From positions 1 to 50,150 of the forward strand of contig JABMNV010000043.1 of assembly GCA_013203475.1 (NCBI GenBank): a DNA stretch of 50,150 nucleotides. The letters are read 5' to 3'. This document shows positions 43,136 to 49,308 of the stretch, piece by piece (positions within the stretch are counted from its first letter, which is position 1; each line of letters opens with the position of its first letter). The position numbers and the translations under genes are program-made. Under the pieces are notes generated by a model, which saw only the letters and a program-made list of their open reading frames with translations, was not told the DNA's origin and did no database searches. The stretch is from Acidobacteriota bacterium. GTDB taxonomy: Bacteria > Acidobacteriota > Vicinamibacteria > Vicinamibacterales > SCN-69-37.

Positions 43136-43530
43136 GTGGGACTACTTGATAACGTGCTGGGCAGGTCACCGGCGGTGGCGGAAATGACCAGCTAATGAGC
43201 CTGGTGATGGGCATGCTGACCGATCAGAAGAGCGGTGGGTTGGCTGGATTGCTGAAGCAGTTCGGCGCGGGTGGCCTGGGTGATGTGGCCAGCTCGTGGG
43301 TGGGCTCGGGCCAGAACCTTCCGGTTTCTGGCAGCCAGATCGCCAGTGTTCTGGGCTCGCCGTAAATCGCCGAGATGGCCGCCAAGCTCGGACTGTCGCC
43401 GGATGCGCTGTCTGGTCAACTGGCGGGCATCCTCCCGCAGATTGTCGACAAGCTGACCCCTCAGGGCAACGTGCCAAACGAATTGTCGAAGGTGGACGGG
43501 ATTGAAGGCTTACTCAAGGGGTTCCTCGGC
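43136..43530 (+). pseudogene. YidB (DUF937) family gene, broken
   Basis: A GTG at 43136 starts GLLDNVLGRSPAVAEMTS and then a stop. A second frame from the ATG at 43195 gives LAGLLKQFGAGGLGDVASSW and VGSGQNLPVSGSQIASVLGS, then an in-frame TAA (43363-43365). The same frame continues IAEMAAKLGLSPDALSGQLA, GILPQIVDKLTPQGNVPNEL and EGLLKGFLG to about 43530. All parts are clearly YidB-like. The lesions are a frameshift near 43190, an in-frame stop, and loss of the natural stop codon where the frame runs into the opposite gnd. YidB homologues are small proteins of poorly known function. It abuts the peptidase stop. Confidence 0.85.
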
Positions 43531-44325
43531 CAGCGCGCGTGCCGTCAGGTCAAGCAACCAGGAACCAATCACGCTGCCTCGCCGCCACAGTTCTGCGATT
43601 TCAGGCAAGGGCAGGTCGTACTTAAAATGTTCAGGTTGGGCGAGCGGGGCAGTCTCTGCGTCGGTCGGCCGGTCTGCCGCACCCGCGTTGGCGTGCGCCA
43701 GGAGGTTAAAACCTTCGGCATACGCTTCCATCAAGGCATACTCGATCCCGTTATGCACCATCTTCACGAAGTGTCCTGAACCGGCCGGGCCGCAATGCAG
43801 GTAGCCCTCGGCGGCGGTGGTCTGGACCTCACTCTTCGGCTGGTCTCGCCCAGGTGTGACCGGCGCGGCATTCACGCCAGGGGCCAGCGTGGAGAAGACC
43901 GGGTCAAGTCGTTTCACCGCCGGCCCGTCACCGCCGATCATCAGGCAGTAACCGCGTTCGGTGCCCCACACTCCACCGCTCACGCCGACGTCCAGGTAGT
44001 GCAATCCCAGTGGCGTAAACTCCTTTGCGCGTCGAATGTCGTCCACATAGTGGGAGTTGCCGCCATCCACCACCACGTCGTCGCTCTTGAGCAGGGGCAT
44101 CAGATCCTTCAGCGTGGCATCGACGACCGCCGAGGGAACCATCAACCAGACCACGCGCGGCCGGGCCAACTGGGCCACGAAGTGTTCAAGTGATTTCGAA
44201 GCCGTGGCGCCCGCGCTGGCGACGTCGGCCATCGCGTCCGCACTTCGATCATAGACAACGCAGTCGTGCCCACCGAGCAGCAGGCGTCGAACCATGTTGC
44301 CACCCATCCGGCCGAGACCGATCAT
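43510..44325 (-). CDS. gnd: 6-phosphogluconate dehydrogenase (decarboxylating), C-terminally truncated
   Basis: The 271-residue product resembles the short GntZ/YqeC-type NAD-dependent enzyme, which makes ribulose-5-phosphate. The Rossmann motif MIGLGRMGGNM is at the start. VVVDGGNSHY, DVGVSGGVWGTERGYCLMIG and GSGHFVKMVHNGIEYALMEA cover the substrate and catalytic regions, including the lysine of FVKMVHNGIE. Homologues usually begin four residues earlier; the matching codon here is ATA (44335-44337), not ATG. They also continue roughly 50-60 residues beyond WLLDLTARALAEEP, but here a TAA follows within three codons, inside DNA belonging to the opposite YidB gene. It is probably non-functional or impaired. 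Confidence 0.8.
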   Translation of the reverse strand: MIGLGRMGGNMVRRLLLGGHDCVVYDRSADAMADVASAGATASKSLEHFVAQLARPRVVWLMVPSAVVDATLKDLMPLLKSDDVVVDGGNSHYVDDIRRAKEFTPLGLHYLDVGVSGGVWGTERGYCLMIGGDGPAVKRLDPVFSTLAPGVNAAPVTPGRDQPKSEVQTTAAEGYLHCGPAGSGHFVKMVHNGIEYALMEAYAEGFNLLAHANAGAADRPTDAETAPLAQPEHFKYDLPLPEIAELWRRGSVIGSWLLDLTARALAEEPLE

Positions 44326-44607
44326 TCCAATTTGTATGTGTCTTCACACCATACCGCACTCTCTGGTCGCCTAGAGGTCTGGAGATTTGGGGATACCCCA
44401 CACGTCAGGACAGCCTGAAACGCACGCTCGACGAATGTCGGCAGGCCCTGCCCATCGCGACGCACCACCGCCGGCGCTTACCAGAGATTCGCGGCGCAGC
44501 CCGGTTCGATGGCACTGCGCGAAGTACCTTCGGCCCGACCGGCAAGGGACCACGACCGCTTACGATTCCTTATGAGTGCGCGACGGGCCTGAGATAAGCT
44601 CGGTCGG
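44326..44607. other. Intergenic region with no recognised gene
   Basis: These 282 bp separate the truncated gnd from the exported methyltransferase gene. Open frames exist on both strands but none has a ribosome site or recognisable protein sequence. The only signal is TAAGCT at 44595-44600, 7 nt before the ATG at 44608, a possible -10 element of a leaderless transcript. No tRNA, terminator or repeat was seen. Confidence 0.4.
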
Positions 44608-46245
44608 ATGCGCGCTCTAAAGAATTCCGCTTCTGTTCGGATCATCGCCGCGGGACTCCTGCTGCTGACCGCGACCGTGCCGTTTTCGGCCCAGTCGTCG
44701 CCGACGCGGGACCTGCGAAACGGCTGGGAAGTCCACCGCGAGTTGGTGGTCGCCCCCGAGGCGCGGGCCGATGCTCCGAAGTACTTCCCGAGTTTCTTCG
44801 ACTACCACGACCTCGTCATGTTTCACCCGACGGTCGGGTACTACTCAAGCGGCCGGGTCGACTTTGTTGACCACTTCCGCACCTATCCTGTCGTGCTGGC
44901 GCCCCTGTTTGGCCACATGGTCGCCGAGCAAGTGTTCACCATGTGGAACGGTATGCGCAGCGCAGGCACACTCGGTGAGCGCGACCGGTTCACGATCGCC
45001 GAGTTCGGCCCGGGGGACGGAGCGCTGGCCGAAGCGATTCTGGCGTATGTGGTGGGCAAAGCGGAGGAGGATGCGGACTGGCGGAGATTCGCCGGCCAGG
45101 TGCTCTACGTCTGCTACGACCGGTCCCCTGCGCTCAACAAGATACAAAAGGAGCGCAATGTCCGCTTCGGTGCCCGCTTCGACGCGCGTGTGGCCGACGC
45201 CACCGACATGACGGCCACGATCGCCAGAGACAGCCTGAATGGCGTCATTCTTTCCAACGAACTGCCGGACGTGTTCAGCGTCCACAAGGTCATCCTCTCG
45301 GCCGACGGAACAGCGGAAGTGGCCTTTGTGGTGCCGATCATTCCCGCCGGGACGTGGGCGACCGTGCAGCCGCTGCTGCCGGCGACCCTCGTGCGAGCCA
45401 TCGACGAAGACGACCGTGCCGTCGAAGACCGGTTGTTCAACGGGCGGCGAGAGTCGGCGGTCTACCTGACACGCGCATCATTTGTGACGCTGCTCGAGCA
45501 ACTGCAGTCGAGCCGCGACTACGAATCCATCGCCAACGCCGTTGAGTTTCGGGAGCTCTACGCCCCGGTGTCGACCGTCCCCATCGCCGCGGAGCATGTG
45601 CGCCGCTACGCCGAGATGTATGCCAACGTCCTGGCCAGGGACCCCAACGGGCTTGTCACCTACGTCAATCCTGGCGCGGAACGTTTTATTCAAGACTCGG
45701 CGCACGTCCTGCGCGCCGGGTACGTCTTGACGCTCGACTACGGGGGCAACTGGGAGGAGATGCTGGCCCAACAGACCTACCCGCGCCTTCGGACCTATGG
45801 ACCCGCGCAACGAGACGAGGCGAATCTGGCTCCGAACAAGATCGACACGTCGGCGCCGTATGTCGGCCCAACACTTAACGACCTCACGACGGACGTCAAC
45901 TTCAGTCTGCTGGCCGCCCAGGGGGCGTCGGTCGGATTGCGGCCGGTGTATTACGGCGCCCAGCGCGCGCTGCAGGCCGGCACCCGCGTGTCGCTGAACC
46001 GCGTCCCCGCCGAACGCGTGCGCGAAGGCAACGCCGACGAATTCCGGAGCTGGGTGGAGAGTTTTTCGGGACCGAGTGTGTACAAGATGCTGCTGCAGCA
46101 GAAGAGCGGAACAGATCCGAAGTACACCTTTCCGGGCCAGTCCCCCGAATCGCTTGACCTCGGCACGGCTGCCTTGACCACCGAGGAACGACGTCGCGCG
46201 GAGCAGATTGCCCAACGCCTGAAGGGGCTGGGCGGCCTGCGCTGA
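44608..46245 (+). CDS. MidA/NDUFAF7-like SAM-dependent methyltransferase with signal peptide
   Basis: The 545-residue protein has an N-terminal signal-like segment (VRIIAAGLLLLTATVPF, cleavage near FSAQS). A MidA-type methyltransferase follows: YYSSGRVDFVDHF, the SAM-binding EFGPGDGALAEAIL (132-145), VILSNELPDVFSVHKV, and the late LTLDYGGNW. These match the order of motifs in the MidA/NDUFAF7 group, whose mitochondrial member methylates an arginine of complex I. The oddity is the export signal: SAM is cytoplasmic, so either the segment is an anchor or the fold has a new role. There is no ribosome site; a TAAGCT lies 7 nt upstream. Confidence 0.7.
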   Translation: MRALKNSASVRIIAAGLLLLTATVPFSAQSSPTRDLRNGWEVHRELVVAPEARADAPKYFPSFFDYHDLVMFHPTVGYYSSGRVDFVDHFRTYPVVLAPLFGHMVAEQVFTMWNGMRSAGTLGERDRFTIAEFGPGDGALAEAILAYVVGKAEEDADWRRFAGQVLYVCYDRSPALNKIQKERNVRFGARFDARVADATDMTATIARDSLNGVILSNELPDVFSVHKVILSADGTAEVAFVVPIIPAGTWATVQPLLPATLVRAIDEDDRAVEDRLFNGRRESAVYLTRASFVTLLEQLQSSRDYESIANAVEFRELYAPVSTVPIAAEHVRRYAEMYANVLARDPNGLVTYVNPGAERFIQDSAHVLRAGYVLTLDYGGNWEEMLAQQTYPRLRTYGPAQRDEANLAPNKIDTSAPYVGPTLNDLTTDVNFSLLAAQGASVGLRPVYYGAQRALQAGTRVSLNRVPAERVREGNADEFRSWVESFSGPSVYKMLLQQKSGTDPKYTFPGQSPESLDLGTAALTTEERRRAEQIAQRLKGLGGLR

Positions 46246-46292: not shown

Positions 46293-46667
46293 TCAGCCGA
46301 CGATGACTTTGCGGACGCCGCGCTCGATGAGGACCTGAGCCAATCGCTTGCGGTGATCGCCCTGCAGCATCAGGCTGTTGCCTTCGACGCTGCCGCCGCA
46401 GCCGAGCGTGGCCTTCAGCGCTTTGAGCCAAATCTCCAGATCAGCAGGGGAGAGTCCGAGCTGTTCCACAACGGTGGCTTCTTTGCCGCCACGTCCAGCG
46501 CGTTCCATCCGCACGACGGCGCGGGGAACGGGGCCGGGCTTTGGGGGCCGACGGGAGTCTGGGGTCCCGGGATCCAGAGGTTCTGGGGTTCGCGGTGGCT
46601 CCGCAGCCTCCCTGGACTCCGGCAATCCAAGCTGTCCTCTCAGTCCCGCGAACGGGTTATTTTTCAT
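46293..46667 (-). CDS. SUI1/eIF1-like translation initiation factor (YciH-like)
   Basis: The 124-residue protein ends with a SUI1 domain (about 50-124). VRMERAGRGGKEATVVEQLG carries the conserved basic loop, WLKALKATLGCGGSV follows, and LQGDHRKRLAQVLIERGVRK leads to the terminal VIVG. The first 50 residues are proline-rich and low complexity. Members bind near the 30S P site and influence start-codon choice. The ATG at 46665-46667 is used; an in-frame start at 46691 would lie within the heptamer repeat. It is 59 bp downstream of glnA on the same strand. An initiation-fidelity factor is of interest beside putative leaderless genes. Confidence 0.87.
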   Translation of the reverse strand: MKNNPFAGLRGQLGLPESREAAEPPRTPEPLDPGTPDSRRPPKPGPVPRAVVRMERAGRGGKEATVVEQLGLSPADLEIWLKALKATLGCGGSVEGNSLMLQGDHRKRLAQVLIERGVRKVIVG

Positions 46668-46670
46668 ACG

Positions 46671-46698
46671 CCAGCACCCAGCACCCAGCACCCAGCAC
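46671..46698 (+). repeat. Tandem heptamer repeat (CCAGCAC x4)
   Basis: Four perfect head-to-tail CCAGCAC units are followed by one degenerate copy (TAAGCAC, 46699-46705). On the minus strand the array (GTGCTGG units) occupies the short gap between the glnA stop and the SUI1 start. Copy-number variation here could alter SUI1 translation; that is speculation. Confidence 0.8.
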
Positions 46699-48271: not shown

Positions 48272-48354
48272 CTGGCCTCCAGTTGCCCGTGTTGCCCATC
48301 GCCTTGACAGGCGAAGGCGCACCATCTATCCTTGAATCCGGATTGACGGATGTA

Positions 48355-49308
48355 ATGACAGCGACCCTTCCACTCCTTGACTCGTTGTCGGCACTGGCCG
48401 ACGTCACCCGCTGCCGCATGCTGGCCGTGGTGGAAGATCACGAGCTGACCGTCTCTGAGCTGTGTGCCGTGTTGCAGCTGCCACAGTCGACCGTGAGTCG
48501 TCAGCTGAAGATCCTGTCGGATGGGGGATGGCTCGCCTCCCGCCGGGACGGCACCAGCCGCTACTACGCACTGGCACTCGACGATGATTCGCGGGCTCAG
48601 GTCTGGCGGTTGACCCGCGCTCAGGTCACCGATCGGCCCAACGCCGCCCAGGATGTTCGGCGTCGTGAGCGAGTGCTCAAGATGCGGGCAGCTACGTCGC
48701 AGCAATTCTTCGCCTCGACGGCGGGCGGCTGGGATTCGGTGCGCGAAGAGCTGTTCGGCCGTGAGTTCCTGTCGGCCTCGCTGCTGAGCCTGCTTGACGA
48801 CACCTGGGTGGTCGGCGATCTGGGGTGCGGAACGGGCCTGGCGACCGCCGCGCTGGCACCCCACGTGGGGACGGTGATCGGCGTGGATGTGTCAGACGAG
48901 ATGCTCGGCGCCGCGCGCGAGCGGCTGGCGGCCATCGACAACATCGAATGGCGCGCCGGGGCGCTTGAGGCCCTTCCGATTGCGCCCGACACGCTCGACG
49001 CCGCCGTGATGTTGTTGGTGCTCCATCACGTCCCGTCTCCGGGCGTGGCACTGGCGGAGGCCTATCGGGCGCTCCGCCCCAACGGTCGCCTGCTCATCGT
49101 CGACATGACTCCCCATCATCGCGAGGAATACCGGCGGCAGATGGGTCACGTGTGGCTGGGATTTGGCGATGACCAGATTCGGCGGTTTCTGGCCCAGGCC
49201 GGTTTTGAGGCGGTGCGCATTTCGCACGTACCCGAGGATCCTGATGCCCGGGGGCCTGGATTGTTTGTAGCGACGGGAAAGAAGAGCACGCGAGGCATGA
49301 AGGCATGA
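48355..49308 (+). CDS. ArsR-family regulator fused to a SAM-dependent methyltransferase (SahR-like)
   Basis: The 317-residue protein pairs an N-terminal winged helix (about 1-75: LSALADVTRCRMLAVVE, LTVSELCAVLQLPQSTVSRQ with recognition helix, SRRDGTSRYYALA wing) with a class I methyltransferase (about 115-310). The SAM motif is VVGDLGCGTGLATAAL at 153-168 and the late motif is MLLVLHHVPSPGVALAEAYR. This fusion next to ahcY matches SahR, which senses S-adenosylhomocysteine and controls the methionine cycle. The match is from memory of the family, and the operator was not found. The ATG at 48355 is preferred; a TTG at 48283 is in frame. Confidence 0.85.
   Translation: MTATLPLLDSLSALADVTRCRMLAVVEDHELTVSELCAVLQLPQSTVSRQLKILSDGGWLASRRDGTSRYYALALDDDSRAQVWRLTRAQVTDRPNAAQDVRRRERVLKMRAATSQQFFASTAGGWDSVREELFGREFLSASLLSLLDDTWVVGDLGCGTGLATAALAPHVGTVIGVDVSDEMLGAARERLAAIDNIEWRAGALEALPIAPDTLDAAVMLLVLHHVPSPGVALAEAYRALRPNGRLLIVDMTPHHREEYRRQMGHVWLGFGDDQIRRFLAQAGFEAVRISHVPEDPDARGPGLFVATGKKSTRGMKA

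Follow-up and report, generated by a model that had tools for sequence, protein, structure and literature searches.

The window, a 50,150-nucleotide stretch of Acidobacteriota DNA, encodes a 545-residue protein that, judged by its sequence, is a lineage-restricted variant of the known MidA/COG1565 superfamily with a well-supported export signal. We see about an even chance that this protein is a periplasmic SAM-type enzyme, a Sec-exported member of the family with a putative envelope or extracellular substrate. SAM is not known to occur in the periplasm and is generally regarded as confined to the cell interior, which makes an export signal on a protein with a SAM site odd; we also know of no donor supply for SAM-dependent methylation outside the cytoplasm in free-living bacteria.

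Fold, SAM-site residues and distribution of the MidA-type protein

The protein is encoded by an open reading frame that begins with ATG and lies where it was first noted. Its sole significant Pfam family is Methyltransf_28 (PF02636/COG1565), matched over residues 104-445 (E 4e-24; 85.7 bits, cut-off 23.3), and no other PF02636 gene was found in the 3.58-Mb genome. The gene and the features of its domain are as follows.

44608..46245, + strand: MidA-type (Methyltransf_28) gene for a 545-aa protein with export signal, from the open reading frame, Pfam, model and fold matches
44992..45021, + strand: SAM motif I, residues 129-138 (TIAEFGPGDG), from alignment
45112..45126, + strand: acidic post-I motif, residues 169-173 (CYDRS, with D171; canonical E), from alignment
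45253..45285, + strand: SNELPDVFSVH motif, residues 216-226 (canonical ANELLDAxPVH), from alignment
45343..45627, + strand: mostly helical insertion of about 75 aa net compared with canonical MidA, lying within residues 246-340, from alignment A3 and the model
45736..45744, + strand: DYG motif, residues 377-379, from alignment

An AlphaFold model of the protein, computed from a 29-sequence alignment, reached a pLDDT of 78 and a pTM of 0.80, with low certainty in the signal region and in residues 390-424. VIA-align placed it closest to 4g67 (COG1565; Z 28.9, 336 aligned, rmsd 3.9), with MidA 5ztz (Z 27.4, 343 aligned, rmsd 3.8) and 1zkd (COG1565; Z 26.9, 320 aligned, rmsd 3.6) also among the top five matches, all of which are COG1565/MidA structures (Z 26.9-28.9) compared with Z 16.6 for the next family. 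Sequence profiles assign the same family. A fold search reports family resemblance rather than activity. The Pfam score and the MidA fold at Z 27-29 uphold the initial description of the protein as MidA-like.

Three orthologues were identified in the searched genomes, namely the window protein and its counterparts in G004 (L024, 75% identity) and G003 (L025, 73%). The carriers amount to 3 of the 193 genomes of the class and all belong to one genus of seven genomes. No PF02636 gene was detected in the remaining four genomes of the genus or in the rest of the family, and canonical MidA, present in many other families of the order, was not found in this one. As regards taxonomic labels, L025, labelled Vicinamibacterales, falls into one genus with the window genome and G004, and VFZF01000005.1 (L024), labelled Acidimicrobiia although G004 groups in that genus, is probably mislabelled.

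The GYY, ExGxGxG motif I, acidic post-I, NExxD, DYG and D(I/L)T motifs are all present (alignment A3). Residues E132, G134, G136, G138, D171, N217, E218, D221 and H226 are invariant in the three orthologues, as are D377-Y378-G379, D425 and T427. The methyltransferase motifs that had appeared intact in the single sequence are thus kept in all three, and the proposed comparison of SAM-site residues with MidA likewise finds the signature retained. Preservation of the whole signature under purifying selection speaks for a putative capacity to bind SAM or a SAM-like ligand.

The window protein shares with MidA and NDUFAF7 (5ztz, 5zu0; human NDUFAF7, PMC3829151) the Methyltransf_28 fold, motif I and NExxD as well as the H, DYG, D(I/L)T and Q motifs. 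Whereas these relatives are cytoplasmic or matrix proteins, it carries an export signal, together with the insertion of about 75 residues (model pLDDT about 77-94 over residues 246-340) and a changed GTL..H block and C-terminus. The nearly invariant DAxP of MidAs is replaced by D(V/A)FS, the GTLxx(F/Y)xxH block is lost, with a poorly ordered segment in its place, and a different C-terminus stands where the MidAs of the phylum have PGGLGSxxKVL. The best structural matches (Z 27-29), the COG1565/DUF185 proteins 4f3n/4g67 from Burkholderia thailandensis and 1zkd from Rhodopseudomonas palustris, are 18-20% identical to the window protein and shorter (374-387 residues solved), with no such export signal or insertion in the matched stretch; 4g67 has an S-adenosyl ligand according to the structure title. 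Given the predicted insertion, the altered GTL..H block and the confinement of its orthologues to two same-genus genomes, the protein is not a canonical MidA.

The altered DAxP motif, the replaced GTLxx(F/Y)xxH block and the insertion, along with the expectation that the periplasm holds no SAM, support the main rival to a periplasmic SAM-type enzyme: an exported protein that is no longer a methyltransferase and has become a periplasmic binding protein, or an enzyme with a nucleoside, SAH or another cofactor. This SAM-free re-use of the fold, which the preliminary description had raised as a SAM-independent secreted paralogue, sits poorly with the retention in three species of the motif I glycines, E132, D171, N217/E218/D221, H226 and DYG, and with a protein identity of 73-75% at a dN/dS of about 0.1-0.2. 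The residue evidence favours ligand binding and the cell-biological argument disfavours SAM; we consider the re-use unlikely, though it deserves serious attention.

Comparison of the neighbouring genes revealed no operon partner common to all three orthologues. The window gene is flanked by a 6PGDH-like gene and SUI1/glnA; in G003 and G004 it occupies one common neighbourhood, with DUF305, GNAT and SSF symporter genes, that differs from its location in the window genome, and in G003 a DPP4-SUI1-glnA block lies about 95 kb from the MidA-type gene. The gene looks stand-alone, and acquired or relocated. A mobile or phage origin was considered and rejected, as no match was found in plasmids, phages or viral contigs.

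Three other reading frames of the window were also noted.

43510..44325, - strand: 6-phosphogluconate dehydrogenase-like open reading frame, 271 aa, matching the NAD domain
46293..46691, - strand: SUI1-type translation factor, adjoining glnA
48283..49308, + strand: open reading frame with an ArsR-type-regulator-like N-terminus fused to a Methyltransf_25 domain

In the first of these, only the first 29 of 290 C-terminal-domain positions were matched, so that it may be truncated or a short variant; within the genus, just one further genome has a close homologue.

The N-terminal segment and the start codon

The start region comprises three elements.

44595..44600, + strand: TAAGCT, a -10-like box lying 7 nt upstream of the ATG and putative leaderless promoter, present in the three orthologues
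44608..44697, + strand: signal peptide or anchor made up of residues 1-30, with the n-region at 1-11, the hydrophobic core at 12-26 and the c-region at 27-30, from composition, L024/L025 conservation and controls
44698..44790, + strand: conserved linker, residues 31-61, longer than the canonical MidA N-terminus, from alignment and dN/dS

The N-terminus, MRALKNSASVRIIAAGLLLLTATVPFSAQS, combines an n-region of charge +3, a hydrophobic core of about 15 residues and a c-region with AQ (..FSAQS), and thereby has the positive n-region, hydrophobic core and small c-region residues of Sec SPI-type signals. The c-region of one prolyl peptidase from the genus, ..QFSAQD, is similar. As a signal rule we used a mean above 2.0 over a hydrophobic 12-mer plus a positive n-region. 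In 400 kb of a same-genus genome, 2.1% of internal start codons (106/5162) passed this rule, and 0.15% (8/5162) did so when AQ behind the core was also required. A passing N-terminus was found for 85 of 231 genes in 400 kb of a same-genus genome, a generous figure because starts were accepted anywhere in the first 300 nt, and 34 of these 85 had AQ. Among the canonical MidA loci of the phylum, which begin directly before the conserved domain without an N-terminal extension, 1 of 27 passed, and that match is a helix inside the conserved domain. Conservation in three orthologues and the chance rate of 0.15% including AQ make the signal-peptide-like segment, as the preliminary description termed it, credible.

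Residues 1-60 contain no RR twin-arginine motif and no Cys; a Tat substrate or lipoprotein was rejected on the absence of the twin-arginine motif and of a lipobox Cys. Cleavage after A28 would place F26 at -3, which is suboptimal, so the segment may instead remain as an uncleaved anchor, with no change in topology.

If the N-terminus were an inefficient export signal, or none, the protein could act inside the cell like a canonical MidA, perhaps tethered to the membrane. SAM is available in the cytoplasm, and with canonical MidA missing from this family the window protein could be its replacement. However, with its n-region charge and AQ c-region the segment resembles the genus's own signal peptides, the positive-inside rule predicts an outside domain even without cleavage, and the canonical MidAs of the phylum have no such N-terminus. 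Together with the absence of an Arg target in the NuoD that could be read (described below), these points make a cytoplasmic enzyme distinctly improbable.

The same ATG opens all three orthologues, each with TAAGCT at 6-7 nt from it. A TANNNT box about 12 bp before the start is a mark of leaderless genes (PMC3160421). In the same-genus control region for leaderless starts, 400 kb of G003 (G003:C11:680001-1080000; L062-L081), TANNNT stood 6-7 nt upstream of 27 of 381 early ATGs compared with 1 of 1468 internal ATGs, which indicates that leaderless starts are usual in this Vicinamibacterales genus. Across the orthologues, dN/dS is about 0.1-0.2 for the full protein, and residues 31-60 have a dN of 0.09-0.20 with a dS of 1.3 or more or saturated. 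Residues 1-30 evolve faster than the rest, in a signal-peptide-like manner, yet the AAxLLLL core is kept.

The preliminary description had named a start after residue 30 as the finding that would overturn its reading; the conserved -10-like box and the coding selection in residues 31-60 contradict such a start. An in-frame TTG/GTG does exist at residues 46/47, and translation from there or from M71 would leave the export signal untranslated. Nevertheless, the -10 box is conserved at the upstream ATG instead, no TANNNT box was seen just before the late starts in the sequence read, and residues 31-60, upstream of and around the codons at 46/47, are conserved at the codon level. A mis-annotated start is accordingly very improbable.

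The complex I analogy and other methyltransferases with export signals

It had been suggested that an anchored enzyme might act on a respiratory membrane complex, as NDUFAF7 acts on complex I, and our results speak against this. NuoD/NDUFS2 faces the cytoplasm or the matrix, whereas the exported domain of the window protein would face the periplasm. NuoD of the window genome (L117, G000:C61) reads VGYLHTGIEK, with Thr where human NDUFS2 has Arg (LHR85GTEK). This Arg85, in the peptide DPHIGLLHRGTEK, is dimethylated by NDUFAF7 in the mitochondrial matrix (PMC3829151). The test for the target Arg rests on L117, as a fragmentary locus on C227 gave no readable site. That second NuoD-like locus (G000:C227:28427-29008; L118, L119) consists of two adjacent pieces with short frames and possibly reflects a frameshift, a divergent hydrogenase subunit or an assembly error.

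The MidA fold and the presence of a complex I 49-kDa gene in the genome are what a membrane-anchored, NDUFAF7-like assembly factor has in its favour. Since the domain is predicted to lie on the wrong side of the membrane for NuoD and L117 reads LHTGIEK rather than LHRGTEK, the analogy is unsupported; PF02636 also went undetected in most of the genus (four of seven genomes) and elsewhere in the family, and we find such a role scarcely credible. In E. coli, a Wolbachia MidA reportedly methylates DNA (PMC12455994), which leaves the native substrate of bacterial MidAs uncertain.

Clear signal peptides were found on methyltransferases at 2 of the 30 Methyltransf_25 loci scanned in the same genome.

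L099:1301-1870: class-I methyltransferase with signal peptide, same genome
L106:1105-1914: class-I methyltransferase with signal peptide, same genome

L106 has relatives in 37 of 199 Acidobacteriota genomes, many of which hold several of them. At 27 of the 29 readable Acidobacteriota loci of this group, a signal-peptide or lipobox N-terminus precedes the DLG(S/C)GDG motif, a count in which the start codon could lie as far as 110 residues upstream. Like the window protein, these small methyltransferases (L099, L106 and relatives) have an export signal ahead of an intact SAM motif I, but they are of another family (Methyltransf_31/25 type, 190-275 aa), unrelated to the MidA form. The suggested search of other Acidobacteriota therefore gave a divided answer: the MidA form with an export signal was found in only one genus (3 of 7 genomes), whereas class-I methyltransferases that carry such a signal but belong to another family are common.

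The small methyltransferases often lie beside an amino-acid permease gene, unlike the MidA form. A related permease was found within flanks of about 1.5 kb at seven Acidobacteriota loci (L141, L142, L144-L147, L149). Plasmid relatives of L106 from Agrobacterium (WP_217006168.1, signal peptide), Leptolyngbya (WP_017292073.1, lipobox) and Chelatococcus (WP_019404735.1, as annotated with only a short hydrophobic segment at the N-terminus) each adjoin an annotated amino-acid permease. This permease is a candidate exporter or importer of SAM, SAH or methionine.

A proposed route to a periplasmic SAM-type enzyme

From the start, signal segment, predicted fold, signature and purifying selection, all read from sequence, we infer export, a SAM ligand, methyl transfer and a substrate along the following lines. 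A leaderless mRNA would be transcribed from the ATG at 44608, and the first ~30 residues would direct the protein through the Sec pathway. The signal would be cleaved near ..FSA/QS or retained as an N-in anchor, either of which would leave the Rossmann domain and its insertion in the periplasm. There the conserved pocket would most likely bind SAM or a SAM-like nucleoside, and the enzyme may methylate an envelope or extracellular substrate.

Precedent for such a periplasmic SAM-type enzyme comes from L099 and L106, two further methyltransferase folds that bear signal peptides in this genome, and from the high proportion of L106 relatives with an export signal. Against it stand the unexpectedness of periplasmic SAM, the lack of a twin-arginine motif, F26 at -3 and the absence of an operon partner common to the three orthologues. 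Sec substrates cross the membrane unfolded, so the protein cannot carry SAM out with it. A literature search, with most subscription journals outside its reach, turned up no description of a periplasmic methyltransferase or an exported MidA.

The MidA-type protein does not stand alone in this respect: other proteins of methyltransferase fold also seem to be exported by these bacteria, and their recurrence in Acidobacteriota makes the puzzle of SAM outside the cell wider than the MidA-type gene. It is conceivable, if rather doubtful, that Acidobacteriota maintain SAM or a related methyl donor in the periplasm, perhaps supplied by the neighbouring permeases, and that several independent methyltransferase families, the exported MidA among them, draw on it to modify envelope molecules outside the cytoplasm. 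The alternatives are export of SAM itself or the recruitment of a familiar enzyme fold to a further role that needs no SAM; the MidA-type protein with its export signal and the widespread methyltransferases with such signals, which often adjoin a permease gene, make the question of SAM outside the cytoplasm directly testable.
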